NCBI RefSeq assembly: GCF_014205225.1
Contig: NZ_JACHNB010000001.1
Location: forward strand, 5,065,501 to 5,129,500
Direction of reading: 5' to 3'
DNA from: Actinoplanes octamycinicus
Lineage (GTDB): Bacteria; Actinomycetota; Actinomycetes; Mycobacteriales; Micromonosporaceae
DNA length: 64,000 nt
Shown here: positions 2 through 63,530 of the stretch, in pieces
Position numbering within the stretch: the stretch's first letter is position 1
Layout: each line of letters starts with the position of its first letter
The notes under the pieces: model-generated
Databases searched by the model: none
What the model saw: only the letters and a program-made list of their open reading frames with translations
What the model was told of the DNA's origin: nothing
Position numbers and translations under genes: made by a program

Positions 2-586
2 CTCGGCGCTCTGGATGTGCCCACCCACGGGTCGTACAAGCTGGACGGCGTCGAGGTGGGCACGCTCTCCGACGGTCAGCTCGCGCTGGCCCGGAACCGG
101 CTGATCGGCTTCATCTTCCAGGCGTTCAACCTGATCCCGCGGACCACGGCGGTGGCCAACGTCGAGCTGCCGCTGGCGTACGCCGGGGTCCGTCCCAAGG
201 AGCGGCGCCGCCGCGCGATGGCGGCCCTGGACATCGTCGGTCTCGCGGACCGCGCCGGTCACGAGCCCAACCAGCTCTCCGGCGGCCAGCAGCAGCGCGT
301 CGCGGTGGCCCGGGCGCTGGTCACCGAGCCGGCCCTGCTGCTCGCCGACGAGCCCACCGGCAACCTGGACAGCAAGTCCACCGACGACGTGCTGCGGGTC
401 TTCGACGACCTGAGCGCGGCCGGCCGGACCATCGTGATCATCACCCACGAGGACGAGGTCGGCGCCCGGGCCAAGCGGCTGATCCGCCTGGTCGACGGCG
501 CGATCGTGACCGACGTCCGGCAGTCCCCGATCGACCGGCCGCCGGTGGGTCATCCGTACTCTCTCGCCGGGCGGCACAGCGCATGA
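2..586 (+). CDS. ABC transporter ATP-binding protein, MacB/LolD type (5' truncated by window)
   Basis: This is the ATPase of an export-type ABC system that works with the permease encoded just downstream. The reading frame is open to the first base of the window and the first residues (LGALDVPTHG) match the region just after Walker A, so the true start and the P-loop lie upstream; the internal GTG near position 17 is not the start. Visible motifs are the Q-loop (FIFQAFNLIP), the signature LSGGQQQR, Walker B with catalytic Glu (LLLADEPTGNLDS) and the H-loop (ITHED). The stop overlaps the permease start as ATGA, so the two are translationally coupled. MacB-like systems move peptides, lipoproteins or drugs; the substrate here is unknown. 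Confidence 0.93.
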   Translation, partial: LGALDVPTHGSYKLDGVEVGTLSDGQLALARNRLIGFIFQAFNLIPRTTAVANVELPLAYAGVRPKERRRRAMAALDIVGLADRAGHEPNQLSGGQQQRVAVARALVTEPALLLADEPTGNLDSKSTDDVLRVFDDLSAAGRTIVIITHEDEVGARAKRLIRLVDGAIVTDVRQSPIDRPPVGHPYSLAGRHSA

Positions 587-7101: not shown

Positions 7102-7139
7102 CGCCCGGCCGCGCGCCGGAACAGGGGCGCGGCCGGGCG
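7102..7139 (-). terminator. Terminator of the TerC operon
   Basis: A perfect 13-bp stem (CGCCCGGCCGCGC at 7102-7114 with its complement at 7127-7139) with a 12-nt loop starts 13 bases downstream of the terC-family stop on the minus strand. Confidence 0.75.
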
Positions 7140-7151
7140 TACCGAAAAGGG

Positions 7152-9226: not shown

Positions 9227-11304
9227 GGTTCTCGCGGGGGCACCGGTGGCCGGATGCGGTAGCGGCGGCCGGGGTCGGCGCGGCCAGTCGCGGGCGGGGC
9301 AGCGTCCGCTTCGTGCTCCTGCTCCCGTGCCCGGTGCCGACCGACCCGCTCCACAGCCTGCGGCCGCCGGCCTTCCTCTACGGCCCGCGGCCGGCGGGCC
9401 TGTCCTTCAGCCTGTGCTTCTTCGCCGGTCTGAGGCAGACGGGCTTGTTCTCGAGCCTGTGGCGGGCGGGCTTCTTCCTCGGCCGGTTTCTGGTGGGCGT
9501 CGGCTGGGGCGGTTGGTTCCTTGCGTTCGGGCACGTCCGGCATGAAGTCCTCCAGGTCGTCCCACTTGATGCCGGGTGACCGGCCGATCGCCGGGGGACC
9601 GGACGCGGGTGGATGGGGGATCGGGTGGACGTCGGCGGGCAGGTCCGCCGAGGCCGAACGGTAGAGGTGTCCGTGCGCCGGGCCGGCCGTGTCGTAGGTG
9701 GCGGACCGGTAGATCGTGCCGCCCTCATCCGGTCCGGGCTGCGGCTGGGGGTGGGGCGGCGAATCGGCTCCGTGGCCGGCCGGCACCTCCCACGATGGCG
9801 GCTTGCCGTCCGGATGACGCTGCGCCTGGTGGTGCGGGAGCGGTTCAGGCCGTGGCGGTGCTTCCGCGCCGTGGCCGGCCGGCTGGTGGTGTCCGCCGGG
9901 CGGCACCTCCCATGGCGGGGCACCGGAACCGTCGGGGCGAGGCGGTGCCTGGTGGTGTGGTCGCGATGGCGTCTCGTGGTCAGGGGGCGCCGACGTGGGT
10001 GCGGCCGGTGGTGGTGGCTGCGGCGAGGGGGCAGAGGGCGCCGACGTCGGTGCGCCTGGTGGTGGGTCCGGTGGTTCCGGGGGTGGTGGCTGCGGCGAGG
10101 GGCGCGGCAGCGAGGGGGCAGGGGGCGCCGACGTCGGTGCGCCTGGTGGTGGCGCCGGTGGCTCCGGGGGTGGGGGCTGCGGCGAGGGGCGCGGTCGCGG
10201 TGCGGGGTGTGGCGGCGAGGGGTCAGGGGGCGTTCGGGTGGGCAGGGGCGGTTCGGGATGAGGCCGCGGCCGCGGGATGCGGGTGGCCGGCCGGCGGCTG
10301 TCATCGGCGCCTGAACTGCCGGTCCGGGCGTGCGCGACGGCCGCCGCCGCGCCCAGGCCCAGGCCCAGCAGCACGCCCAGCGCGGCGGACACCCCGCCGA
10401 TCGAACCCATCGTCAGGACGTGCGAGGCGCCGTCCGATCGCATCCAGGCGAGGACGCCCGCCAGCCCGAGGTCCGCGCACGGACGCCCGTCGGCGGTGAC
10501 GCACTCCAGCCAGCCGCCGTCGTCGGCGTAGGCGCCGCGGACCCGGAGCACCTGCGCCGCCACCACCGCACCGGCCACCACCAGGACCATCGCGGTCCGG
10601 GGGCGCGGCGCGCCGCGGACCAGCAGGAGGGACGCGGCCGCGGCGATCAGCCCAAGACTCAGCTTGATCGGCCAGTTGTCGATCACTCCGTCCACCAGCA
10701 GGCCGGCGGCCTCGCCGAGCATCACCATGAACGGGCTGATCATCGCGGCCACCCGGGGGCCGGCCTTGGGCGCCACGATCCCGCACAGGCCGCGCCACAC
10801 CCGGATCAGCGCGAAGTTCAGCACCACCCCGATCGGTGAGGCGGCCAGTGCCAGCAGCGCCAGTGCGAGGACCTTGGCGACCGCCGAGGAGATCGCCGTG
10901 GCGATCACCAGCGCGACGGAGGAACCCCACAGCAGCATGGCGACCGCGCCGGCGGGGTGTTCCGACATGGCGGCGGAGATCCGCCGGGGGAACTCCGCGA
11001 CGTCGGCTTTGAAGGCGGTCCATCCGCGGGTCCAGGCGTACGTGATCACCGCGCTCACCATCGTGAACAGGATCAGCCAGAACAGTCCGTTACCGGTGTG
11101 CCCGTCGGCCGTGGCGGTCGTCGTGTCGCCCGGCGCGACCTGGCTGCCCTCGAGTCCGACCGCCATGGCGTACGTGTTCCAGGCCCAGCCCGTGAAGAAC
11201 GCCAGCACGCTGAGCGCCAGAGTGAGGCGCCAGTTGGTACGCGTCCAGTGCCGCCACTGGCGCATGACGTCACGGGTCCACCCCAGTGCGTCCTGCAGCG
11301 TCAT
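9223..11304 (-). CDS. Membrane protein with long Pro-rich C-terminal tail
   Basis: About 693 residues from the ATG of MTLQDALGW; the frame stays open for another 81 codons upstream, but those residues look non-coding. The N-terminal half has about seven to eight membrane helices (to about residue 330), including a Cys-containing loop CVTADGRPCADLG. The C-terminal half is disordered, Pro/Gly/His-rich with imperfect in-frame repeats (RPSPQPPPPEPP...PPPGAPTSAP; DNA repeat starts at 9986, 10037 and 10124, 51 and 87 bp apart), then a charged Glu/Ala/Arg tail. The general look resembles polytopic conjugation or secretion membrane proteins, but I do not recognise the family. It heads a three-gene membrane operon. 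A repeat-rich tail of this kind may vary between strains. Confidence 0.75.
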   Translation of the reverse strand: MTLQDALGWTRDVMRQWRHWTRTNWRLTLALSVLAFFTGWAWNTYAMAVGLEGSQVAPGDTTTATADGHTGNGLFWLILFTMVSAVITYAWTRGWTAFKADVAEFPRRISAAMSEHPAGAVAMLLWGSSVALVIATAISSAVAKVLALALLALAASPIGVVLNFALIRVWRGLCGIVAPKAGPRVAAMISPFMVMLGEAAGLLVDGVIDNWPIKLSLGLIAAAASLLLVRGAPRPRTAMVLVVAGAVVAAQVLRVRGAYADDGGWLECVTADGRPCADLGLAGVLAWMRSDGASHVLTMGSIGGVSAALGVLLGLGLGAAAAVAHARTGSSGADDSRRPATRIPRPRPHPEPPLPTRTPPDPSPPHPAPRPRPSPQPPPPEPPAPPPGAPTSAPPAPSLPRPSPQPPPPEPPDPPPGAPTSAPSAPSPQPPPPAAPTSAPPDHETPSRPHHQAPPRPDGSGAPPWEVPPGGHHQPAGHGAEAPPRPEPLPHHQAQRHPDGKPPSWEVPAGHGADSPPHPQPQPGPDEGGTIYRSATYDTAGPAHGHLYRSASADLPADVHPIPHPPASGPPAIGRSPGIKWDDLEDFMPDVPERKEPTAPADAHQKPAEEEARPPQAREQARLPQTGEEAQAEGQARRPRAVEEGRRPQAVERVGRHRAREQEHEADAAPPATGRADPGRRYRIRPPVPPREP

Positions 11305-15097: not shown

Positions 15098-15693
15098 CCG
15101 CCGTCATCCGGCCGGCCCGCGCCGACGAGCTCGCCGCGATCGGCGCGCTGATCTCGCACTCGTTCGACCACCTGGCCGCGGACGCGTACCTGGTGCCGGT
15201 CCCGGCGGACCGGGAGCGGGTGATGGCCGACTTCTTCACCCTGGAGACCGAGTACGCCTTCAGCCACGGCAAGGTGGAGGTGATCGACCACCCGGACGGC
15301 GGGCACGCGGCCGCCGCGGTCTGGTTCGACCGGGTCACCCCGCTGCCCGAGTTCCCCGGGTACCTGGAGCGGCTCACCGCGCTGGCCGGCGACCACCTGG
15401 AGCGGTTCGGCGCGCTGGGCGAGCTGTTCGAGAAGAACCACCCCACCGAGCAGCACTGGCACCTGCAGTTCCTCGCGGTCCGGCCGAGCGAGCAGGGGCA
15501 CGGGCTGGGCGGCGCGCTGATGCGGAACGTGCACGACCAGCTGGACGCGCGGGGGCTGCCGGCCTACCTGGAGGCGACCAACGAGAACAACGTGCGGCTG
15601 TACCGCCGGTACGGCTACACCGGGATGGACCCGTTCGAGATCCATCTCCCGGACGGCACCCCGTTCTACCGGATGTGGCGCCCGCCGTCCTGA
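15094..15693 (+). CDS. GNAT-family N-acetyltransferase
   Basis: A 199-residue GNAT protein. The acetyl-CoA loop is visible as LQFLAVRPSEQGHGLGGALM (V-x-x-x-x-Q/R-G-x-G/A), followed by the C-terminal LEATNENNVRLYRRYGY motif. Such proteins N-acetylate small amines, antibiotics or protein N-termini. It overlaps the permease gene by four bases and is followed by a strong terminator, so it closes the operon. Confidence 0.92.
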   Translation: MTAVIRPARADELAAIGALISHSFDHLAADAYLVPVPADRERVMADFFTLETEYAFSHGKVEVIDHPDGGHAAAAVWFDRVTPLPEFPGYLERLTALAGDHLERFGALGELFEKNHPTEQHWHLQFLAVRPSEQGHGLGGALMRNVHDQLDARGLPAYLEATNENNVRLYRRYGYTGMDPFEIHLPDGTPFYRMWRPPS

Positions 15694-17903: not shown

Positions 17904-19770
17904 GCTCACCGTCGCGCAGGCGGTGGTGCGTTTCCTGGCGAACCAGTTCACCGAGCGCGACGGCATCCGGCAACGGGCGGTCGCCGGGTTCCTCGGCATC
18001 TTCGGGCACGGCAACGTGGCCGGGATCGGGCAGGCGCTGCTGCAGGCGCAGCGCACCGGGTCCCCGGAGATGTCCTACCTGCTGGCCCGCAACGAGCAGG
18101 CGATGGTGCACACCGCGGTGGGCTACGCCCGGATGCGCAACCGGCTGTCCACCCTGGCCTGCACCGCCTCGATCGGCCCGGGCTCCACCAACATGCTGAC
18201 CGGCGCGGCGCTGGCCACCGTCAACCGGATCCCGGTGCTGCTGCTGCCCTCCGACGTCTTCGCCACCCGGGTCGCCGTCCCGGTGCTGCAGGAGCTGGAG
18301 GATCCCCGCTCCGGCGACGTGTCGGTCAACGACGCGTTCCGGCCGCTGTCGAGGTTCTTCGACCGGGTCTGGCGCCCGGAGCAGCTGCCGGCCGCGCTGC
18401 TCGGCGCGATGCGGGTGCTGACCGACCCGGTGGAGACCGGCGCGGTCACCGTCTGCCTGCCGCAGGATCTGCAGACCGAGGCGTACGACTACCCCGACGA
18501 GCTGTTCGCCGAGCGGATCTGGCACGTCACCCGCCCGGCCCCGGACCCGCTCGCGGTGGAGCGCGCCGCCGCGGTGATCCGGGGTGCCCGCCGCCCGCTG
18601 ATCGTGGCCGGCGGCGGGGTGATCTACTCGGAGGCGACCGCGCAGCTCGACCGGTTCGCCCGGGAGACCGGCATCCCGGTGGCCGACACCCAGGCCGGCA
18701 AGGGCGCGCTCAGCTGGGACCACCCGAACGCGGTGGGTGGCGTCGGCGCGACTGGCAGCCCGGTGGCGAACCGGCTGGCCGGGCACGCCGACGTGGTGCT
18801 CGGCATCGGCACCCGGTACTCCGATTTCACCACCGCCTCGCGGACCGCGTTCCGGCATCCGCAGGTCCGGTTCGTCAACCTCAACGTGGCCTCCTTCGAC
18901 GCCGGGAAACTGTCCGCGCTGCCGCTGGTCGCGGATGCCCGGGCCGGGCTGGCGGCGCTCCGCCCGGCCCTGCACGGACGGCGGTTCACCGGCGACTTCC
19001 ACGACGACGTGGCCGCCTGGAACGCGACGGTGGACCGGGCGTACCGGGGAAGCAAGAGCAACCACCTGCCCACCCAGGCCGAAGTGATCGGGGTGGTGAA
19101 CGACGCGTGCGGAGCACGCGACGTCGTGGTGCAGGCGGCCGGCAGCCTGCCGGGCGACCTGCAACGGCTGTTCCGGGCCCGGGACCCGAAGCAGTACCAC
19201 GTCGAGTACGGCTACTCCTGCATGGGCTTCGAGATCGCCGGCGCCCTGGGGATCAAGCTGGCCGACCCGGCCCGCGAGGTGTACGCGCTGGTCGGCGACG
19301 GCTCCTACCTGATGATGGCGCAGGAGCTGGTGACCGCGATCGCCGAGGGCGTGAAGCTGATCGTGGTGCTGGTGCAGAACCACGGCTTCGCGTCGATCGG
19401 CGCGCTCTCCGAGCAGGTCGGCTCGCAACGGTTCGGCACCAGCTACCGGTTCAAGAGCGCGCAGACCGGCGACTACGACGGCGCGCTGCTCCCGGTCGAC
19501 CTGGCGGCCAACGCGGAGAGCCTGGGTGCCGCGGTGATCCGCTGCCGGACCGCGGCCGACCTGGCCGAGGGCCTGAAACGGGCGCGCGAGGCGGACCGGC
19601 TGACCGTGCTGCACATCGAGACCGACCCGCTGGCCGGCGGGCCCGGCTCGGAGTCGTGGTGGGACGTGCCGGTGGCCGAGGTGGCCACCCTGCACAGCAC
19701 CCGGCACGCCCGCACCGGATACCTGGAGGGCAAGCGCGACCAGCGGCATCACCTGCGACCCGGAGGCTGA
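17893..19770 (+). CDS. iolD: 3D-(3,5/4)-trihydroxycyclohexane-1,2-dione acylhydrolase (IolD)
   Basis: A 625-residue ThDP-dependent enzyme that opens the inositol-derived ring. It has the ThDP-family order: N-terminal PYR domain with the catalytic Glu in LARNEQAMVHTAVGYARM, a central domain, and a C-terminal PP domain with the metal-ThDP motif VGDGSYLMMAQEL...VVLVQNHGFASIG. Length is normal. The GTG start is set by the duplicated GGAGCGGAGG site. Three bases separate it from iolA. Confidence 0.95.
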   Translation: MKHRLTVAQAVVRFLANQFTERDGIRQRAVAGFLGIFGHGNVAGIGQALLQAQRTGSPEMSYLLARNEQAMVHTAVGYARMRNRLSTLACTASIGPGSTNMLTGAALATVNRIPVLLLPSDVFATRVAVPVLQELEDPRSGDVSVNDAFRPLSRFFDRVWRPEQLPAALLGAMRVLTDPVETGAVTVCLPQDLQTEAYDYPDELFAERIWHVTRPAPDPLAVERAAAVIRGARRPLIVAGGGVIYSEATAQLDRFARETGIPVADTQAGKGALSWDHPNAVGGVGATGSPVANRLAGHADVVLGIGTRYSDFTTASRTAFRHPQVRFVNLNVASFDAGKLSALPLVADARAGLAALRPALHGRRFTGDFHDDVAAWNATVDRAYRGSKSNHLPTQAEVIGVVNDACGARDVVVQAAGSLPGDLQRLFRARDPKQYHVEYGYSCMGFEIAGALGIKLADPAREVYALVGDGSYLMMAQELVTAIAEGVKLIVVLVQNHGFASIGALSEQVGSQRFGTSYRFKSAQTGDYDGALLPVDLAANAESLGAAVIRCRTAADLAEGLKRAREADRLTVLHIETDPLAGGPGSESWWDVPVAEVATLHSTRHARTGYLEGKRDQRHHLRPGG

Positions 19771-33845: not shown

Positions 33846-34754
33846 ATGACCGCGACCGCGACCCGCCATCCCGCCCCCGGTGGCGTCCGCCTCGACGTCC
33901 GCGGCCCGGTCCGCCCGGCCCTGCGGATCGAAGCCGCCGGCCGCAAGCGTTTCGTGCTGCGCCAGCCCGCCGGCCCGGTCCTCTTCGGACGCGTCGAGGG
34001 CGACTGGTCCGGCGCCGACTATCTGCGCACCGGTCGGTTCCGCTCGCCGATCGGGCCGCTGCGCACGCCTGCGGACCGCTTCGAGGAAGAGGACGATTCC
34101 TGGTACGCCCGGTGGGCGCACCACCTGGCCACTGAACTGCTCGCCTCTCCGGACGGCCCGCTCTACACCGGTCAGTGGCTGCTCAGCTCGGCCGTTCGCA
34201 GGCTGGCGGTCCGGCCCGGGAGCATGCCGGTCGCCCGGCGCTGGGCTGAGCTGCTGTGCGCCCCGGACCGGGACGAGCTGGACTGGATCTCGCAGGCCGG
34301 GCTGTGGCGGGTGCTGCCGCTGCGTGACCTGTCCGCCCCGGACGCCGGGCGGGTCAAGGCGTACCGGAAACAGGCCCGCGCCGGGGTCCTCCCGCCGGTC
34401 CTGCTCTGGTGGCTCAGTGCCCTGGAGTGCCATGTCGTGCTGGACGGCCACGACCGCCTGGTCGCGGCGATCGCCGAGGACCGGGAGCCGCCGCTGCTCG
34501 GCCTGGCGACGGTCAGACCGGCGGTGGCGGCCCGGGAGGCCGAGGAGGCGGTGGAGCGCTACCTGACCGCGACGGTCCAGCCCTGGGCCGGCTTCGTTCC
34601 CGATCTCGGCGACCGGCTCGCCGGTGAGCTGCGGGACGCCGACGCCGCCCCGGCACGGACCCGGGCCTGGCCGCTCCGCGGCGGCTCCGCTGCCTGGTCC
34701 GCTTTGGTCGCCGCACACGCCACGGACTGGCCACCGGGCGGCGACGACCGGTAG
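33846..34754 (+). CDS. Hypothetical protein with DGHDRL motif
   Basis: A 302-residue soluble protein, ATG preceded by GTG in frame and GGGG upstream. Codon use is strongly coding. Near residue 200 it has ECHVVLDGHDRLVAAIAEDREPPLLGL, which resembles the VxDGHHR-LxAA motif of ParB-like nuclease/N-terminal domains, but I see no HTH or other ParB parts. No operon partners; the neighbour at its 3' end is convergent. Function unknown. Confidence 0.8.
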   Translation: MTATATRHPAPGGVRLDVRGPVRPALRIEAAGRKRFVLRQPAGPVLFGRVEGDWSGADYLRTGRFRSPIGPLRTPADRFEEEDDSWYARWAHHLATELLASPDGPLYTGQWLLSSAVRRLAVRPGSMPVARRWAELLCAPDRDELDWISQAGLWRVLPLRDLSAPDAGRVKAYRKQARAGVLPPVLLWWLSALECHVVLDGHDRLVAAIAEDREPPLLGLATVRPAVAAREAEEAVERYLTATVQPWAGFVPDLGDRLAGELRDADAAPARTRAWPLRGGSAAWSALVAAHATDWPPGGDDR

Positions 34755-36715: not shown

Positions 36716-38175
36716 GGACCACCGAACCAGCGGGTCAGCGCGGTCACCAGCCCCTCGGTGTCCGGCACCGGATCATCCGACGACCAGGCCACGTAGGTGT
36801 CCGGCCGGACCAGCATCGCGGTCCCGGACGGCAGCGACGCGGTGACCAGCTCCACCCGGTCCCGCCACGGCGCGACCGTCCCGGCCAGGGTTCCGGTGTT
36901 GTCCACCAGCAACGGCCGGCCGGCGTGGGTCAGGGCGCCGAGATCCGGGGCGAGACCGGCCACCCCGTCGTACCGGAAATCCGTCCCCGCGATCAACGCG
37001 GCCAGACGCCGGACCACGGCCTCCTCCTCCAGCAACTCGGCGAAGAGCGCGCGCAGCGCGGTCACCGCCGGCCCCGGCCCGGCCAGCACACTCTGCGCCT
37101 GGGTGTGCATCACCACCCGCTCGGCCACCGGCCGGCGCTCCGACTCGTAGGTGTCCAGCAACCCGGCCGGCGCCCGGTGGTGAACCTGCGCCGCCAGCTT
37201 CCAGCCCAGGTTGATCGCGTCCTGCAGGCCCAGGTTGAGGCCCGGACCGCCGATCGCCGAGTGCACGTGGGCGGCGTCGCCGAGCAGGATGACCCGGCCC
37301 CTGCGGTAGTGGTCGGCGATCCGGCTGTTGCCGCCGGCGAGCCGGCGCAGGGTGTGCGGTTCCGGACCGGTCGGCGGCCGCAGTGGCACCGCGACGCCGA
37401 GCACGTAGTGCAGCGTGTCGAGCACCTCGGCCAGCGTCACCGGTGCGTCGCCGGCCGGCCGCGCGGTGGTCGCGACAGTGATCAGTTTCCGCCCATCCGG
37501 GAACGGCGCGAAGGCCACCATGCCACGCTCGGTGCGGTGGTGCTGGAACGGCGGCACCCGGCCGTACCCGGGAATCAGCAGGCCGCCGGTCTCCGGATCG
37601 AGCAGCTCGGCGGGCACGTCGACCACGGCGGTGCGCGACACCGAGTGGTCGTCGGTGACGCCGGGGAAGGCGAAACCGGTCAGCTTCCGGGTCACGCTGC
37701 GCCCGCCGTCGGCCCCGACGAGATAGCGGGCCTCGATCCGGTAGGCGCCGTCCGGGCCGGTCACGTCCGCCACCACCCGGTCGTCCTTCTGATCCAGACC
37801 GGTCAGCTCGTGTCCACTGCGGACCTGCACGCCCAGTTCGGCGGCGCGCTCGGCGAGCATCGATTCGATCTTCTGCTGCGGCGCGAGCAGGATGTGCATC
37901 GGGTTGTCCGAGATCCCGGCCAGGTGCAGGGCGAAAGCGCCGAACACGTGACCCGGCGCCGGTTCCGGCCCGCCGGGGCGGCCGGTCAGCCGCTCGTAGA
38001 GGCCGCGCCGGTGCAGCATCGGCACGATCTGGCCGACCAGGCCGTTGGCGCGCTGCTCGGTGGACGGGCCGGTGCGGCGCTCCAGGAGCAGCGGGCGGAC
38101 GCCGTTGAGGGCGAGTTCGCAGGCGAGCATGAGGCCGTTGGGCCCACCCCCGACGATCACAACATCAAAAGACAT
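36700..38175 (-). CDS. FAD-dependent aromatic monooxygenase (PheA/TetX-like)
   Basis: A 491-residue flavin hydroxylase with the FAD motif VVIVGGGPNGLMLACELAL, the central YLVGADGGRSVTRKLTG (DG motif) and GDAAHVHSAIGGPGLNLGLQDAINLGWKL. The C-terminal thioredoxin-like domain is present. Such enzymes hydroxylate phenols, polyketides or antibiotics. ATG preceded by AAGGGG. The next upstream gene on this strand encodes a TetR regulator, 657 bp away across repeats, a plausible regulator. Confidence 0.93.
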   Translation of the reverse strand: MSFDVVIVGGGPNGLMLACELALNGVRPLLLERRTGPSTEQRANGLVGQIVPMLHRRGLYERLTGRPGGPEPAPGHVFGAFALHLAGISDNPMHILLAPQQKIESMLAERAAELGVQVRSGHELTGLDQKDDRVVADVTGPDGAYRIEARYLVGADGGRSVTRKLTGFAFPGVTDDHSVSRTAVVDVPAELLDPETGGLLIPGYGRVPPFQHHRTERGMVAFAPFPDGRKLITVATTARPAGDAPVTLAEVLDTLHYVLGVAVPLRPPTGPEPHTLRRLAGGNSRIADHYRRGRVILLGDAAHVHSAIGGPGLNLGLQDAINLGWKLAAQVHHRAPAGLLDTYESERRPVAERVVMHTQAQSVLAGPGPAVTALRALFAELLEEEAVVRRLAALIAGTDFRYDGVAGLAPDLGALTHAGRPLLVDNTGTLAGTVAPWRDRVELVTASLPSGTAMLVRPDTYVAWSSDDPVPDTEGLVTALTRWFGGPQLSI

Positions 38176-39462: not shown

Positions 39463-39502
39463 AAAACTGCGTGCCCCGCAAAGTTGCGGGGCACGCAGTT
39501 TT
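39463..39502. promoter_or_regulatory. Perfect 40-bp palindrome before tetR (operator and/or bidirectional terminator)
   Basis: Nineteen-base arms (AAAACTGCGTGCCCCGCAA and its exact complement) meet around AG. The A/T tracts at both ends make a perfect bidirectional intrinsic terminator for the ABC exporter on the minus strand. At the same time it covers the likely -35 (TTTGCG, 17 bases from TACGGT) of tetR, so it could be its own operator. Confidence 0.75.
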
Positions 39503-39544
39503 CTCAGCGCCGTCTCAGCTTGCCGGCGCGCGGCCGGGCTGGCT

Positions 39545-39581
39545 CCCGCGGGTGTCTCCGCCGTGCGGAGACACCCGCGGG
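39545..39581. repeat. Perfect 17-bp hairpin, core-only member of the dispersed palindrome family
   Basis: CCCGCGGGTGTCTCCGC and its exact complement with a CGT loop, flanked by GGCTGGCT on the left and a decayed AGCCAGCC (CACAGCC) on the right. It begins 24 bases downstream of the exporter stop. The core and flanks match the centres of the elements at 50082-50489 and 63089-63530. Confidence 0.8.
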
Positions 39582-39604
39582 GCACAGCCGGCCACCCGCC
39601 GGTG

Positions 39605-45875: not shown

Positions 45876-45909
45876 GCACGGTCCGCTCCGGGTGCGGGCC
45901 GCCGCTTTC

Positions 45910-45985
45910 CGGTACGCGCGAGGCGGTCCCGGCGCGAGGCCGCCTCGCGCCGGACGGCCGCGGCGGGACCGCTCCGGGCGTACCG
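45910..45985. terminator. Composite inverted repeat between convergent genes
   Basis: Three nested dyads: CGGTACGC/GCGTACCG (45910-45917, 45978-45985), GCGGTCCCG/CGGGACCGC (45923-45931, 45964-45972) and a 10-bp arm GGCGCGAGGC/GCCTCGCGCC around one base (45931-45951). Probably a bidirectional terminator. Confidence 0.7.
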
Positions 45986-47776: not shown

Positions 47777-48754
47777 GTGCCCGTGCTGATCTCCCGACGC
47801 CACCTGCTGCTGCTCGCCGGGTCCGCGGCGCTGGCCGGCTGCACCGCCCCCGACAAGCCCTCCTGGCCGCCGGTGCCGTCCGCGCTGCCGTCCCCGTCCG
47901 CGGTCCGGACCGGCGGCGGACCGGTGCCGCTGCAGCCCGGCAAGGTGATGCTCGGCGCCTACGTCGCGCTCCACGGGATGAGCCCGGCCGGCGGGCTGGC
48001 GCTGCGCCGCCGTCAGCTCGGCCACGACCTGCGGATCGTGCACCGCTACTACTCGTGGACCGATCAGCTGCCGACCCGGCTGTCCTACCTGCCGCCGGCG
48101 AGCACGCTGATGATCTCCTGGCGCGGCCCGCGGCTCACCGACATCACCACCGGCCGGGCCGACCGGCTGATCACCGCGGCGGCCCGCCGGCTCGCCGCCG
48201 GCGACCGGCCGGTCCTGCTGCGCTGGGGCTGGGACATGAACCGCGACTTCTACCGCTGGGGCGGCGCCGCCAACGGCCGGTCGCCGGCCGGCTACGTGAC
48301 CGCCTGGAAACGGCTGCGCGGACTGTTCGCCGAGGCCGGCGCGGACAACGTCTCCTGGGTGTGGAGCCCGAACTGGAACACCCACCCCGAGGAACCCTGG
48401 AACAATCGGGACGGGTACTACCCGGGTGACGACCTGGTCGACTGGGTGGGCGTGTCCGGGTACTCGCAGGGCGAGACCCCGGAGCAGATGTTCGACCCGG
48501 TCTACCAGACGTACGCCGCCCGGAAACCCATCATGATCACGGAGGTGGCGGTGGCGGACCGCGGCGGCGCCAGCAAACCGGACTGGATCCGGGACTTCGC
48601 GGCCTGGGCGCGGTCCCGGCCCGCGGTCGGCGCCGCCGTCTGGTTCGACACCGACACCCACCCCGGCTCGACGGAGAAGTGGCGGATCGACTCGGACCGG
48701 GCCAGCCTGGCCGCGTACCGGGCGATGGCCGGCGATCCGGTGTTCGGCGCGTGA
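47777..48754 (+). CDS. GH26-like glycoside hydrolase lipoprotein
   Basis: A 325-residue secreted lipoprotein (twin-arginine SRRHLLLL, lipobox LAGC, Cys22) followed by a GH26-type TIM barrel, the mannanase fold. The usual acid/base segment H-E-M-N-G reads RWGWDMNRDFYRWGG, with Asp153 at the acid/base position, while the nucleophile is kept (KPIMITEVAV, Glu256). WSPNWNTHPEEPWNNRDGYYPGDDLVDWVGVSGY is typical of the family. Substrate could be an exopolysaccharide. GTG start; overlaps the beta-helix gene. Confidence 0.85.
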   Translation: MPVLISRRHLLLLAGSAALAGCTAPDKPSWPPVPSALPSPSAVRTGGGPVPLQPGKVMLGAYVALHGMSPAGGLALRRRQLGHDLRIVHRYYSWTDQLPTRLSYLPPASTLMISWRGPRLTDITTGRADRLITAAARRLAAGDRPVLLRWGWDMNRDFYRWGGAANGRSPAGYVTAWKRLRGLFAEAGADNVSWVWSPNWNTHPEEPWNNRDGYYPGDDLVDWVGVSGYSQGETPEQMFDPVYQTYAARKPIMITEVAVADRGGASKPDWIRDFAAWARSRPAVGAAVWFDTDTHPGSTEKWRIDSDRASLAAYRAMAGDPVFGA

Positions 48755-50067
48755 GACGGGTCGTCCTCGCGGTGGCGGTGCTGATCCCGCTGGTGGCGCT
48801 GGTCGCCTGGGCGTTCACCCACGAGCCGTCCGGCACCGCCGAGGCGCCCGCCGGCTACTGGGTCTCCGCCTACGGCGACGACGCCGGCGACGGCAGCTCC
48901 CGGCACCCGTGGCGCTCGGTCACCAAAGCGGTCAGCGCGGTCCCCGAGGGCGCCACCATCCACCTGCGCGGCGGGGACTACCGCCCGTTCACGGTGGACC
49001 GGCCCGGCCTGACGATCACCAGCGCGCCCGGCGAGAAGGCGACGATCGTCGGGCAGTCCGGCACCCGGGACGTCATCCTGGTCACCGACGACCACGTCAC
49101 GCTGCGGAACCTCGAGGTGCGCGGCTGCGTGCCCAACCCGGCCCCGGACGCGGCGGAGACCGGCGACCACGGCAGCGGCGTGCGGATCCACGGCACCACC
49201 GGGGTCACCGTGCAGAACGTGCACGTGCACCACAGCGCCGGGACGACCGCGGCCGGGCTGCCGGTCGGCTGCTACGGCATCCTCGCCACCGACGCCCGGG
49301 ACCTGACCGTGAGCGGCAACGAGGTGGACCACAACGGCGCCGGGATCGTGGTCTCCGGCGGCGGCCGCGGCGTGCTGGTGGACGGCAACACCGTGCACGA
49401 CCAGGACCGGATCATCCACAACACGGCGGCGCCGCTGGACGACTTCGGCGGCTACGGGCTGGCCGCGACGTTCGTCGAGGACGACCCGGGGCCGGTCTTC
49501 CGGAACAACACGGTGACGCACAACCTCGGGCCGTCCACCGACTACGGCGTCGACGGCGGCGGCATCGAGATCTACGACGCCGGGCACGTGACGATCACCG
49601 GCAACACGTTCGCCGACAACGACGGCGCGCTGGAGACCGGCACCGGCTCCGGCGGCGGCTGCGACGGCAACGTCTTCGCCGGCAACACCGTCGCCACCCG
49701 CGACCACGGCGACGACCGCTCCACCGGCCTGGTGCTGCGCTGCGCCGCCGACATGCGGGTCACCGGCAACACCTTCGAGAACCTCAGCCAGTTCACCTTC
49801 CTGATCTCCACGGACGGCGACTTCGCCGGCCGCATCGACGGTCTCACCATCACCGGCAACGATGTCCGCCAGGCGCCGGGCGTGGTCGTGCACCGCCTCC
49901 AGGTGCCCTCGACCGCGTCGCTGCCCCGCATCACGATCGACGCCAACCGCTACCGGCTGGCCGGCGCGTCCTTCGCGGTGATCGGCCCGGACGACTCGCC
50001 GGACGCCGCCAACACGGTCGACTTCGCCACCTGGCAGCAGCGCACCCGCTTCGACGCGACGTCCTAG
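48751..50067 (+). CDS. Membrane-anchored right-handed parallel beta-helix protein
   Basis: A 438-residue protein with an N-terminal signal anchor (VVLAVAVLIPLVALVAWAF) and a beta-helix of PbH1 repeats (GVTVQNVHVHHS, DLTVSGNEVDHNG, GVLVDGNTVHDQD, HVTITGNTFADND, DMRVTGNTFENLS, GLTITGNDVRQAP). The start YWVSAYGDDAGDGSSRHPWRSVTKAVSAVPEGATIHLRGG is common to pectate-lyase-like/poly-lyase proteins. GTG start overlaps the GH26 stop. Probably binds or cleaves an acidic polysaccharide; the substrate is not known. Confidence 0.9.
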   Translation: MRRVVLAVAVLIPLVALVAWAFTHEPSGTAEAPAGYWVSAYGDDAGDGSSRHPWRSVTKAVSAVPEGATIHLRGGDYRPFTVDRPGLTITSAPGEKATIVGQSGTRDVILVTDDHVTLRNLEVRGCVPNPAPDAAETGDHGSGVRIHGTTGVTVQNVHVHHSAGTTAAGLPVGCYGILATDARDLTVSGNEVDHNGAGIVVSGGGRGVLVDGNTVHDQDRIIHNTAAPLDDFGGYGLAATFVEDDPGPVFRNNTVTHNLGPSTDYGVDGGGIEIYDAGHVTITGNTFADNDGALETGTGSGGGCDGNVFAGNTVATRDHGDDRSTGLVLRCAADMRVTGNTFENLSQFTFLISTDGDFAGRIDGLTITGNDVRQAPGVVVHRLQVPSTASLPRITIDANRYRLAGASFAVIGPDDSPDAANTVDFATWQQRTRFDATS

Positions 50068-50081
50068 ATCCGGACCACCCT

Positions 50082-50489
50082 CGCTGCCGCGACGCCGCCC
50101 TCCCCCTTCCGGATCCTTGTCCGGTACGACTCGGAGCCCCGTGCGAGCCGGCCCGCGATGCCCCGGCCCGCGCAGGACCGCCACGCGTGTCGTGCGGGTC
50201 CGCCGGCGGACCGCGACGCCCGCCGCCGGTCACGGCTGCGGCCGCGCCCCCTGTCCCGGGCTGGCTTCCACGGGTGTCTCACAGCGGTCGAGACACCCGT
50301 GAGAGCCAGCCGGGGGCGGGAGCCGCGGCCGGGGCCGTGACCAGAAGCGGGCGTCGCGGGCCAGCGGCGGACCCGCACGACACGCGCGGCGGTCGGGGGT
50401 GGGCCGCAGCCTCGCGGGCCGACTGTCACGGGACTCCGAGTCGTACCGGACAAAGGATCCGTAAGGCGGAGGGCGGCGTCGCGGCAGCG
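50082..50489. repeat. 408-bp near-perfect palindrome (giant hairpin element)
   Basis: Arms of about 200 bp run from CGCTGCCGCGACGCCGCCCT inwards to a core GGCTGGCTTCCACGGGTGTC / GACACCCGTGAGAGCCAGCC around a 9-nt loop centred at 50285. The outer 65 bp of each arm differ by three substitutions and one indel; the rest is alignable throughout. It starts 14 bases after the stop of the left gene and ends 53 bases before the stop of the right, convergent gene. No transposase frame lies within it. Confidence 0.95.
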
Positions 50490-50541
50490 GGGAAAGGCGA
50501 CGGCCCCGGCACCTCGGGGTGCCGGGGCCGTGGCGAAGCCG

Positions 50542-53031
50542 CTATCCGGCCAGCTGGTAGATGGTGACGCCGGGGGCCTGGTAGAAGACCTTCCACGCCG
50601 GGGACGCGGACAGGCCCTGCTTCAACGAGGTGAAGGAGCCGTCCGGGAGGGTGCCGAAGTAGGCGGTCTGGCGTTCCATCGAGTCGCTGACCACCAGGTA
50701 GTTGGTGGGGTAGTTCATCGCCTTGACGTACTCGGTGAGGTCGGCGATCCGGGAGCTGTTGATGTTGCCGGTGAAGTACGGGTCGCCGATCAGGGAGATG
50801 TCGACCGAGACGTGGCCCTTGTTGAAGGAGCCGTAGTTGCCCCTCAGCTTGGTCGGGAAGTTCGGGGCGATCAGGATGACGCCGGAGTCCGGCTTGGCGT
50901 GGTCGTAGAGGTAGTTCGCGGCGACGATGTCGGTGCGGGTGACGAAGTGGACCTCGCTCTGGCCCTGCAGGCCCTGCAGGCCGGCGAACATCAGGACGCC
51001 GGTCAGGACGCCGGAGCCGGCCTTCCAGTACCAGGAGCGATGCGGCTTGCCGCCGGCCCAGAAGGTGGCGACCAGCAGCGCGGTGAACGGCAGCGAGAAG
51101 GCGTAGACCCGGTAGATCGCCTCGCCGCCGTAGCTGCCGCCGGCCAGCGTGGTGATCGGCAGGTAGGCGAGCAGGGCGGCGACCAGCACCGTGCCGAGCT
51201 TCTTGCGGGCCCGCCAGACGGTGAACAGGCCGGTGGCCCAGAGGCCGATCGCCAGGGCACGGGCGACCAGGGCGGAGAACTCCTGCTGCGGGGTGCTCCA
51301 GCTGGCCGCGTTGCCGGACGCGTTGGCGAACAGGTTGAAGTCGAAGATCGAGTACTGGCTGCTGACCGAGCCGATCCGGGGAGCCAGGAAGGCCACCAGG
51401 ACGGCGCCGAACAGCACCGCGAGCAGGCGCGGCCGCAGGATGCCGAGCATCGCCAGGACCACCACCGGGACCATCATCATCACCGGGGTGAGCTGGTGCG
51501 ACACCACGATCGCGGCGTAGATGACGGTGGCCGCGGCGGCCGCCCAGAGCCGGCTGCGGCGGCTGACGTCGGGACGTTCCGGCAGGTCCCGGGTGAGCCA
51601 GGCGCGCAGCCGCTCGATTCGCGGGAACCGCTGGATCTCGCCGGTCGGCGGGCCGGTCAGCCAGCGGATGACGATCACCCAGAAGGCGAGCATCAGCGGG
51701 TAGACGTAGCCCTGCGGGGAGAAGTAGCCGATGTCCACCCACATGCACGCCTGGGCCATCAGCGTGCCGAGCGCGATCACCCGGCGGTTGGTGGTGAACT
51801 GGCGCAGCAGGGCTGCGGTCATCAGGCCGTTGAGCACCATGCAGGCCAGCGACGACCAGGCGGCGAACGAGATCGGGTCCAGGCCGGAGACCTTGGACAG
51901 CAGCGCCATCACCGCGAAGAAGCCGGGCCACTGCTGGTAGATGTCGGTGGAGTCGATCAGGTGGCCGTTGTCCCGGATCAGCTCGACGACGCCGAGGTGC
52001 TTGTAGGTCCAGGCGTACTCGGTGGTGCCGCTCAGGATCGGGACGGTGGCCTGCATGATCGCCGGGACGGCGAGGATGCCGGCGGTCAGCACCAGCGGGC
52101 GGGCCCGGCCGAACAGCTCGGCCGCGAAACCGATGCCGAGCAGCGCGAGCGCCACGAAGAACGGGACGCCCAGGGTGGTGGAGAGGCCGTAGGCGCCGAA
52201 GTGGGCGGGGCTGAACCGGACCAGCGTGAAGATCCACAGGGCCAGGCCGGCCGGCAGGGTGACCAGCGGCAGCAGGGCGGTCAGCCGGTCGGCGCCGCGC
52301 TCGGCCGGGTCGCTGAGGACCGGGCGGGTGAAGCGGGCGCCGGAGCGCCACTGCCGGGTCAGCTGGACCAGGCCGGCGAGCATGCTGCCGCCGGCCAGCA
52401 CGCCGAGCGAGGCGGCCGGGTGCCAGAGGTGCAGCCAGAGGGTGAGCACGGCCGGGGCGACGCTGATCGACAGGCTCAGCGCGGTCGCCATCGACCAGGC
52501 GGTGAGCCGGTTCTGCAACGGGACGAAGCCGAGTACCGCGGCGCCCGGGGCGACCAGGATCATCGCGAGGAGCAGCAGCAGGCGGGTGCCCGGGTGCGGG
52601 ACCAGCTCGCCGGCGACGCCGAGCAGCCCGCCGAGGACCGCGATGGCGGCGAACTCCAGCCGGGTGTCCAGCCCCGGGGTGTCGTCGGCCGGGGCGGCCG
52701 ACGGCTGTGGCCGCCCGGCCTTCACCGGGCGGCGGATCATCTGGGTGACGCTCTCCAGCCGGGGGATCAGCTGGGTGGCGTTCTTGTCGACCTGGGGGAT
52801 GACCTGGGTGGCGGCGGCCTCCGGAGCGGCCTTCTCGGGCAGCGGGATCCGGACGGTCTTCTCGCCGAGATCCAGGCGCGTCGTCTCCTCGCCGACCGGC
52901 TTCGTGGCCGGCGCCGGGATCACCGCGGTCGCCTCCGGGTCCTGGCGGGCCGCGTCCGTACGGATGATGACGGTCGCCGCCGGGTCCGGCGACGATCCGT
53001 CCTTGGTCTCGGGCGAGCGCTGCTGCGCCAT
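50542..53031 (-). CDS. Polytopic membrane glycan-biosynthesis protein with TxxI-rich cytoplasmic N-terminus
   Basis: An 829-residue protein: a 110-residue N-terminal tail, about 16 membrane helices (about 125-660) and a C-terminal extracytoplasmic domain (about 680-829, with VVSDSMERQTAYFGTLPDGSF). The large loop TEYAWTYKHLGVVELIRDNGHLIDSTDIYQQWPGFF, with its acidic residues, resembles the catalytic loops of GT-C glycosyltransferases. The N-tail has six T-x-x-I motifs (Thr 20, 35, 59, 75, 86, 96). It heads nothing downstream; the GT genes of the same strand lie upstream. Function in surface glycan assembly inferred from context. Confidence 0.8.
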   Translation of the reverse strand: MAQQRSPETKDGSSPDPAATVIIRTDAARQDPEATAVIPAPATKPVGEETTRLDLGEKTVRIPLPEKAAPEAAATQVIPQVDKNATQLIPRLESVTQMIRRPVKAGRPQPSAAPADDTPGLDTRLEFAAIAVLGGLLGVAGELVPHPGTRLLLLLAMILVAPGAAVLGFVPLQNRLTAWSMATALSLSISVAPAVLTLWLHLWHPAASLGVLAGGSMLAGLVQLTRQWRSGARFTRPVLSDPAERGADRLTALLPLVTLPAGLALWIFTLVRFSPAHFGAYGLSTTLGVPFFVALALLGIGFAAELFGRARPLVLTAGILAVPAIMQATVPILSGTTEYAWTYKHLGVVELIRDNGHLIDSTDIYQQWPGFFAVMALLSKVSGLDPISFAAWSSLACMVLNGLMTAALLRQFTTNRRVIALGTLMAQACMWVDIGYFSPQGYVYPLMLAFWVIVIRWLTGPPTGEIQRFPRIERLRAWLTRDLPERPDVSRRSRLWAAAAATVIYAAIVVSHQLTPVMMMVPVVVLAMLGILRPRLLAVLFGAVLVAFLAPRIGSVSSQYSIFDFNLFANASGNAASWSTPQQEFSALVARALAIGLWATGLFTVWRARKKLGTVLVAALLAYLPITTLAGGSYGGEAIYRVYAFSLPFTALLVATFWAGGKPHRSWYWKAGSGVLTGVLMFAGLQGLQGQSEVHFVTRTDIVAANYLYDHAKPDSGVILIAPNFPTKLRGNYGSFNKGHVSVDISLIGDPYFTGNINSSRIADLTEYVKAMNYPTNYLVVSDSMERQTAYFGTLPDGSFTSLKQGLSASPAWKVFYQAPGVTIYQLAG

Positions 53032-63034: not shown

Positions 63035-63088
63035 CCGGGCTGTCGTCCCGGCCGCTCGCGGTCCGCCTCTCGTCCCCGACAACCATCC

Positions 63089-63530
63089 CGCTGCCGCGAC
63101 GCCGCTCCCCAGCTCGCGGTCTTCTTTCCGGTACGACTCGCAGCCCCATGGCAGCCGGCCCGCGATGCCCGGCCCCCTCGCGGCCGCAGCGCGGCGCACG
63201 GTCCCGGCTGGTTCTCACGGGTGTCTCAGGGCGGTTGAGGCACCCGTGGGAGCCAGCCGGACGACCGTTGCGCGCGGCTGGGCGGTGCGGTGCACGGTCC
63301 GGGCTGGTTCTCAGGGGTGTTTCAGGGTGGTTGAGAGACCCGTGGGAGCAAGCCGGACGACCGCTGCGCGCGGCTGGGCGGTGCTGGTCCTGAGGGGTGT
63401 TTCAGGGTGGTTGAGAGACCCGTGGGAGCCAGCCGGACGACCGCTGCGCGCGGCTGGGCGGTGCGGCAGGGTGGCCGGGCGGCGTCAGCGCGTGGCGGGG
63501 CGGCTTCGGGCGTACCGGAAACGGGGTAGG
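63089..63530. repeat. Decayed relative of the 408-bp palindrome with three tandem hairpin cores
   Basis: The left arm (63089-63180) matches the left arm at 50082: CGCTGCCGCGACGCCGC, then TCCGGTACGACTCGNAGCCC and GCCGGCCCGCGATGCC. It is followed by three copies of the GGCTGG...CACGGGTGTCTC...GAGACACCCGTG...AGCCAGCC core at about 63206, 63302 and 63382, spaced 96 and about 81 bp. The right arm is almost gone: only CGTACCGGAA near 63510 remains. It lies between convergent STAS and P450 genes. Confidence 0.85.

Follow-up and report, generated by a model that had tools for sequence, protein, structure and literature searches.

A long palindrome between convergent Actinoplanes genes belongs to a dispersed arm family carrying a lineage-specific 11-bp word

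The stretch of DNA analysed here (the window) covers 64,000 nucleotides of the 10.3-Mb genome of Actinoplanes octamycinicus, termed G000 below; G013, G020, G035, G046, G047 and G051 denote other genomes of the genus. Two convergent genes in the window end 474 bp apart, stop to stop, and the gap contains the whole of an imperfect palindrome of 414 bases with arms of 202–203 nt (Table 1). The right-hand gene has a small hairpin of its own ahead of the palindrome. An earlier note had described this inverted repeat as near-perfect, sited exactly between two gene 3′ ends and free of any transposase. The repeat is real and lies at most 3 bases from where it had been placed; its position and its lack of a transposase are as described, and the arms do pair over their full length around a 9-nt loop. 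"Near-perfect" is generous wording, however, as global alignment of the arms gives 172 identical columns out of 203 (84.7%; 31 differ, including one gap), with a longest perfect run of 22. Five differences fall in the outer 65 arm columns, in agreement with the very few changes claimed there, and the match extends over the whole arms rather than being confined to the central 50 bp. An assembly artefact is unlikely, given the 31 differing columns between the arms and the presence of both outer ends in recognizable form (the left one degraded) at the matching position of a related genome.

Folding of 50070–50500 as RNA, a check that the earlier note had proposed, yields −408.1 kcal/mol against −245.7 (s.d. 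6.4) for 100 shuffles (z = −25.3), none of which folds as well. The palindrome is also the strongest self-inverted repeat in a scan of the window, at 439 bits, the other two scoring 72.5 and 64.4. Separate inverted repeats (40 and 81 columns) are found at 39463–39602, between same-strand TetR-family and ABC-transporter genes; the arm profile has no match to them. An intrinsic bidirectional terminator has a hairpin and then a T run on the transcribed side. The palindrome shows the reverse, each arm having its T run at the outer 5′ edge and its A run at the 3′ edge, and 49900–50700 contains no intrinsic-terminator-like site. These features, and the right gene's own small hairpin, speak against a simple terminator.

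Table 1. Positions of the palindrome, its flanking genes and related arm and word sites in the window
Feature	Position	Strand	Basis or remark
Left convergent gene, right-handed β-helix (Beta_helix, NosD, DUF1565)	48751..50067	+	Gene finder, ORF list, Pfam
Right convergent gene, 829 aa, without Pfam match	50542..53031	-	Gene finder, ORF list, Pfam
Entire imperfect palindrome, both inverted arms plus loop	50079..50492	no strand	Repeat scan, fold, arm alignment
Left arm, a member of the dispersed arm family	50079..50280	+	Inverted-repeat and family matches
Right arm, second copy, inverted	50290..50492	-	Inverted-repeat and family matches
Loop, 9 nt	50281..50289		
Tip hairpin GGGCTGG..CCAGCC	50258..50311		Resembles ~61–64-bp hairpin units in tandem in several other copies
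Conserved core, left arm	50116..50209	+	Model R1 match G000:C1:5115616-5115709
Conserved core, right arm	50362..50454	-	Model R1 match G000:C1:5115862-5115954
Word TGTCCGGTACG, one mismatch to TTTYCGGTACG	50118..50128	+	50 nt past left-gene stop
Same word variant, inverted	50442..50452	-	89 nt past right-gene stop
Small separate GC-rich hairpin between palindrome and right-gene stop	50497..50534	-	
Second arm copy in the window, between convergent genes	63088..63214	+	Profile match
Exact word at second arm site	63125-63135	+	
Exact inverted word at second arm site	63511-63521	-	
Exact word in convergent gap	45906..45916	+	30 nt past stop codon
Exact word TTTTCGGTACG	7138..7148	-	3 nt past stop codon, strong hairpin next
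Exact word in coding gene, sense	36969..36979	-	Same place in G051 ortholog
Exact word in predicted coding gene, antisense	34360..34370	-	No ortholog found in G051 strip

The palindrome is not unique: it is one of many similar hairpins in the A. octamycinicus genome. The BLASTN check suggested for the arms, run with the left arm, recovers at least 59 matches at 39 or more places of the genome it comes from, with 40 of the 463 candidates scored, and a profile hidden Markov model finds 63 arm matches at 43 places in the 800 kb fetched around the blastn places (~20 kb around each). Two contiguous strips, 491 kb of G000 (picked because it surrounds the window) and the matching 462 kb of G051, each contain six arm places, a density that extrapolates to ~125 per genome. 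Some places consist of two inverted arms, forming a palindrome, and others of a single arm. Across 67 genomes of the genus, model R1 at E ≤ 1e-6 detects the family in three (at least 62 matches in each of G000 and G051, 37 in G035) and has no match in the remaining 64, where weak copies may be missed since the search used Infernal's stricter filters. Blastn at 1e-12 matches 2 of 60 relatives (G000 and G035) and none of the 24 from other families. No arm match was found in phages and plasmids at blastn sensitivity, and viral contigs gave no match to an exact two-part pattern; among named genomes the same pattern gave six single matches in five unlike taxa, one a Micromonospora, which we take as chance. 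The three species each hold dozens to ~100 or more sites with a longer arm (core ~85 nt, up to 200 nt); where two such arms pair, the hairpin reaches 400 bp or more, and in some cases tandem hairpin units occupy its middle. Both this family and the word underlying it had been missed in the earlier note.

Arm places favour the space between convergent genes. By the calls of our own simple codon-usage gene finder, which is used throughout and differs from standard annotation, 26/43 places in G000, 24/42 in G051 and 15/25 in G035 are convergent (one of 26 in G035 being left out, its left gene cut off). Pooled, this is 65/110 against 341 of 1,686 adjacent gene pairs in a background that includes element-bearing pairs (Fisher p 1.5e-20). 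Counted by distinct gaps, of which the 110 places make 108, 63 are convergent and 7 divergent; divergent pairs make up 334/1686 of the background. A survey of folding in gaps of 120–900 bp, biased because its regions were picked for elements, finds hairpins most in excess in convergent gaps that bear an element, with 4/18 convergent gaps lacking an element also above the same threshold. A long palindrome (258 nt, 76%) at 19432–19689 of L039 occupies a convergent gap without an arm of the family.

Nine long copies were inspected for their interiors. None has a gene called between its flanking genes; seven hold tandem arrays with a period of ~61–64 bp, and of the remaining two, L138 has a 57-bp array and L040 has different periods. 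We rejected the idea of transposon ends or terminal inverted repeats on these grounds, the interiors having tandem arrays in seven of nine cases and no called gene. The ~61–64-bp units are each a hairpin (GGCTGG..GGCCC..GGGCC..CCAGCC) and stand between inverted arms or beside an arm, with arrays at L104/L089 (G051), L132, L136, L112, L117, L137, L110 and L130. A different arrangement is seen at L056, where inverted arms at 9938–10061 (+) and 15435–15558 (−) flank a single 5.2-kb gene in a same-strand row.

The arm family is conserved over a core of ~85 nt. In 58 aligned cores from the three species, picked from 130 eligible matches, GTACGAC and 20 further columns show no variation, and neighbouring columns do vary. 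The other two species depart from the columns conserved in G000 in only 33 of 2,015 cells, and from the variable columns in 635 of 1,336; finding copies by similarity favours conserved columns, an effect we judge too weak to account for the difference. RNAalifold predicts 18 pairs in the core, none with a compensatory change, and an Rfam search at E up to 1 returns two matches, both far below the gathering score (54.2 against 197; 19 against 80). We therefore rejected a structured RNA family; what the core conserves is its primary sequence, not a structure.

The arms of one palindrome are little closer to each other than to arms elsewhere, with a mean identity of 0.821 (n = 10) against 0.786 (s.d. 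0.038, 180 pairs) across different palindromes. This small difference bears on the idea that the palindrome is a recent inverted duplication or template-switch product unrelated to other loci. Copying of one arm from its partner is conceivable in principle, and both arms here have the same TGTCC variant, but a rare variant is shared within only one of ten palindromes (permutation p 0.43), and the dispersed family and the G051 ortholog described below contradict an isolated event; we regard such an origin as very improbable. The same permutation test does not show arm-to-arm conversion, despite fewer mismatches at variable columns within palindromes (154/376, 0.41) than between paralogs (0.537). 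Active copying, which the earlier note had offered as one cause of the palindrome's persistence, is supported for the family as a whole, present at many dispersed places in three species, and not for correction of one arm by the other.

Recent origin, a second cause offered, is contradicted at this locus because a right arm is present in the orthologous gap of G051 together with a left arm in degraded form (a weak match, E 2e-4), the two being separated by ~1 kb of tandem hairpin units and other, unassigned sequence. The more distant G046, at 74% protein identity and with no match to the arm model, has inverted one-mismatch words 243 bases apart and a deep hairpin in the homologous gap. The inverted word pair may therefore be older than the arms at this locus, on the basis of this one genome; G013 has no inverted word pair in its homologous gap, and two-mismatch words there in other genomes are at chance level by estimate.

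Beyond this locus, 12 of 13 comparisons of syntenic gene pairs (8/9 G000 gaps) find a G000 arm place also occupied in the other species, a sample biased because the regions were chosen for elements. Among conserved adjacent-gene gaps in the two strips, two are concordant for the arm and one discordant. By flanking genes, ~4/6 arm places per strip are common to G000 and G051, the window locus included; for the rest, the matching position of the second genome lacks an arm. Word sites turn over as well: among orthologous genes, the word is shared in 10 and present on one side only in 12 and 13. In ten pairs of orthologous arm copies, conserved columns differ in 14/518 comparisons and variable columns in 170/372 (46%); the comparisons used 10 of 12 and 10 of 11 listed pairs, those without a full arm being dropped. 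Fourfold-degenerate sites are 79% identical between G000 and G051 (21% differ), so that either the variable columns evolve freely and are saturated or copies are exchanged between sites. Plain vertical descent without turnover was rejected on the same figures. Selection, the third cause in the earlier note, is supported for the word and the core by the contrast between the two classes of column. Rapid change in length between G000 and G051 is seen in element-free convergent gaps too (eight gaps, median identity 0.505 over the longer length).

Dispersed, extragenic, inverted doublets that are scarce in divergent gaps and patchy among species invite comparison with selfish elements of the REP/BIME/REPIN or MITE kind, whose doublets would replicate through a hairpin transposase and settle harmlessly at gene 3′ ends, solo arms being decayed doublets. 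REPINs are described in PMC3116915 as inverted REP doublets that form hairpins, and the discordant gap above could pass for an empty site: G000 has 514 bp with an arm where G051 has 8 bp. No target duplication is visible in this one pair, though, and either polarity is possible, deletion in G051 being an equal candidate. REP-type tags (GTAG/CGTC; defined in PMC3733652) are not conserved; counted anywhere in the core, GTAG is present in 7 of the 58 cores and CGTC in 17, and neither is fixed at the hairpin foot. No arm-linked transposase was found with PF01797, the only profile used, in the palindrome's own genome and the fetched flanks. The five Y1_Tnp proteins of the genome resemble multi-copy IS200/IS605 TnpA, and their loci have the word nearby in one case of five and the arm in none. 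These loci, L164–L168, hold five similar IS200/IS605-like copies, some shortened or fused in frame. Most syntenic places are also occupied in both species, albeit in regions chosen for elements. We consider a selfish element unlikely.

Each palindrome arm holds a variant of the 11-bp word TTTYCGGTACG, which is more widespread than the arms. The window has 15 matches with up to one mismatch, against 0.52 expected. Counted as exact TTTCCGGTACG, the word has 393 copies in G000 (the reversed control has one), 403 in G035, 247 in G051, 234 in G013 and 160 in G020. Over the 67 genomes of the genus the count runs from 5 to 403 (reversed controls 0–5): nine genomes have 100 copies or more and 58 fewer, many species being near background. 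An extended form, TTTYCGGTACGCC, has 194 copies in G000 and 219 in G051, ranges from 1 to 219 in 36 genomes of the genus, many of them low, and occurs 0–5 times in each of 164 genomes from other genera of the family, where the word was counted in this form only. The head of the arm, TTTCYGGTACGAC, is also enriched in genomes that lack arms (67 copies in G013, 21 in G047 and 13 in G046, with 112 in G000; reversed controls 0–1). The word is a lineage-specific expansion within the genus, not a mark of every species, because it is high in some genomes and low in many others and in the other genera.

We mapped the word, with up to one mismatch unless stated, across the two strips. In sense orientation it lies within 120 nt of non-coding DNA downstream of 61/841 genes (492 of which have at least 30 nt of such DNA), compared with 25 genes for antisense downstream copies and 15 for sense copies upstream. 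The commonest distance past the stop is 5–9 nt, and within 100 nt the word is found at 56/841 genes where permuted control words are found at 0–4. Seventy-eight copies are intergenic; on the upstream side of their own strand, 56 have a stop codon and 22 a start. Pairs within one gap are head-to-head in 15 cases (11 and 4 in the two strips), tail-to-tail in none and direct in one—inverted extragenic doublets are over-represented, as in REP families. In the most compact pairs, such as TTTCCGGTACGGCGGGGAGCCTCCCGCCGTACCGGAAA, the words form an entire hairpin of 36 or 38 bp in a convergent gap; the long palindrome is arranged in the same way but on larger arms. Free energy over the next 50 nt downstream of the word is slightly lower than in other 3′ regions (−19.6 versus −17.9), a small difference. 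A second recurring stretch, GGTCCGCTTC or similar, is often present ~20–30 nt upstream of the word at gene ends in both strips, as at strip A 479568 (G000:C1:5409568); coding occurrences of its exact 10-mer (17) outnumber intergenic ones (10).

Sense-strand placement after stops, and conservation of primary sequence rather than structure, are what one would predict if the word were the operator of an abundant putative DNA-binding protein of nucleoid or roadblock type that halts RNA polymerase where genes end. On that view the coding copies, which lie in both orientations, would obstruct transcription within genes, and we doubt this reading. Of the 54 exact TTTCCGGTACG copies in the two strips, 24 are in predicted coding sequence, and a purely 3′-end role is therefore insufficient. 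In the internal coding DNA of 621 gene copies, pooling both members of G000–G051 ortholog pairs, the word occurs 21 times against 0.57 expected under synonymous codon resampling, ranking first of 301 words; the other 300, all permuted, sum to 33 occurrences where 31.1 are expected. Eight positions are common to G000 and G051 (peptide context), so that some of the 21 depend on one another. Coding sites are sense and antisense and in two frames; some that lie outside the restricted 621-copy test may be miscalled by our gene finder. An 11-mer in conserved reading frames on both strands cannot have arisen by insertion, which again speaks against a selfish element; point mutation with selection, or a directional drive, can produce it. 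No pattern of replication-strand skew is visible, the origin position not being fixed.

Over-representation in coding DNA on both strands, head-to-head intergenic pairs and restriction to a lineage are together reminiscent of a genome-wide word of uptake-sequence or Chi type. The arms would then be byproducts, and pairs would settle between convergent genes as the least costly place and as usable terminators, as in Neisseria and Pasteurellaceae. Uptake words also occur in coding DNA. To our knowledge, no transformation has been reported for the genus, which counts against this reading. A ComEC-family protein is present in the A. octamycinicus genome, but the family is found in 10/14 control genomes and its presence therefore says little. 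PMC1852404 describes uptake sequences that form terminator hairpins and puts uptake signals at generally 1,000 copies or more; the 393 exact TTTCCGGTACG copies in 10.3 Mb, exact copies being the only ones counted genome-wide, fall below this. The word alone also leaves arms of 85–200 nt unexplained. We hold an uptake or Chi-type word with incidental arms to be possible, if on the unlikely side.

The explanation we favour, at slightly better than even confidence, is that the palindrome is an overgrown 3′-end hairpin, formed by two repeats confined to this clade that grew up around a lineage-specific word, with a function read from sequence patterns. Two inverted copies of one dispersed repeat, one per convergent gene, make up the palindrome, each built around TTTYCGGTACG, a word that has multiplied in some species of the genus. 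A sequence-specific DNA-binding factor may recognize the word, and intergenic word pairs would act as bidirectional 3′-end hairpins, keeping convergent transcripts apart with no need of a T tail. In an ancestor of the three species, a longer word-containing arm probably spread to many such sites by copying, after which the interiors would grow and shrink by replication slippage or tandem duplication. A doubtful but more encompassing version starts from an uptake- or recombination-type word TTTYCGGTACG kept by selection in genes and at gene ends in some species of the genus; head-to-head pairs in convergent gaps would have become 3′-end hairpins and, in one clade, seeded a repeat family with 400-bp palindromes and gaps of more than 1 kb.

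The word suggests an as yet unrecognized genome-wide recognition signal. The bacteria known to have uptake words in genes together with gene-end hairpins are Gram-negative; a strong candidate in a 10-Mb actinobacterium would raise questions about sequence-specific DNA exchange, recombination or 3′-end control there. With counts of 5 to 403 within one genus, gain of the signal can be traced in a natural series. The arm family accounts for a long-lived imperfect palindrome of 400 bp without recent origin, and may relate to the GC-rich structures that hamper Actinoplanes sequencing: according to PMC3364876, many stable GC-rich secondary structures hindered sequencing of Actinoplanes sp. SE50/110. 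Like the ones described here, those structures are many and stable, and they possibly come from the same genus; they are treated there as a technical problem, the text available naming neither a family nor a word. The portion of PMC7682106 available likewise names no such motif, and a search of the open-access literature, made without the letters of the word, found no published description of the arm family or the word.

Among known systems, Rho-independent bidirectional terminators share with the palindrome a hairpin between convergent genes, and the palindrome differs from them in lacking a T tail, with its T run on the other side, a far longer stem and a fixed word. REP, BIME and REPIN sequences are alike in being high-copy extragenic repeats with inverted hairpin doublets in 3′ gaps. 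REPINs are linked to RAYTs (PMC3116915, PMC3733652), whereas the window family has neither a fixed GTAG/CGTC tag nor a RAYT among our finds, has arms of up to 200 nt rather than 20–40 bp, and is underlain by a word that is also found in coding DNA. The uptake sequences of Neisseriaceae and Pasteurellaceae (DUS and USS) are short and over-represented, with inverted pairs that serve as terminator hairpins (PMC1852404). The window family matches them in having a short, over-represented, lineage-specific word whose inverted pairs form hairpins at gene ends, and departs from them in its actinobacterial host genus, lower density, missing T tail and arms of 85–200 nt, an uptake role for the word being hypothetical. 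The family thereby resembles both uptake sequences and REPINs, each in part.
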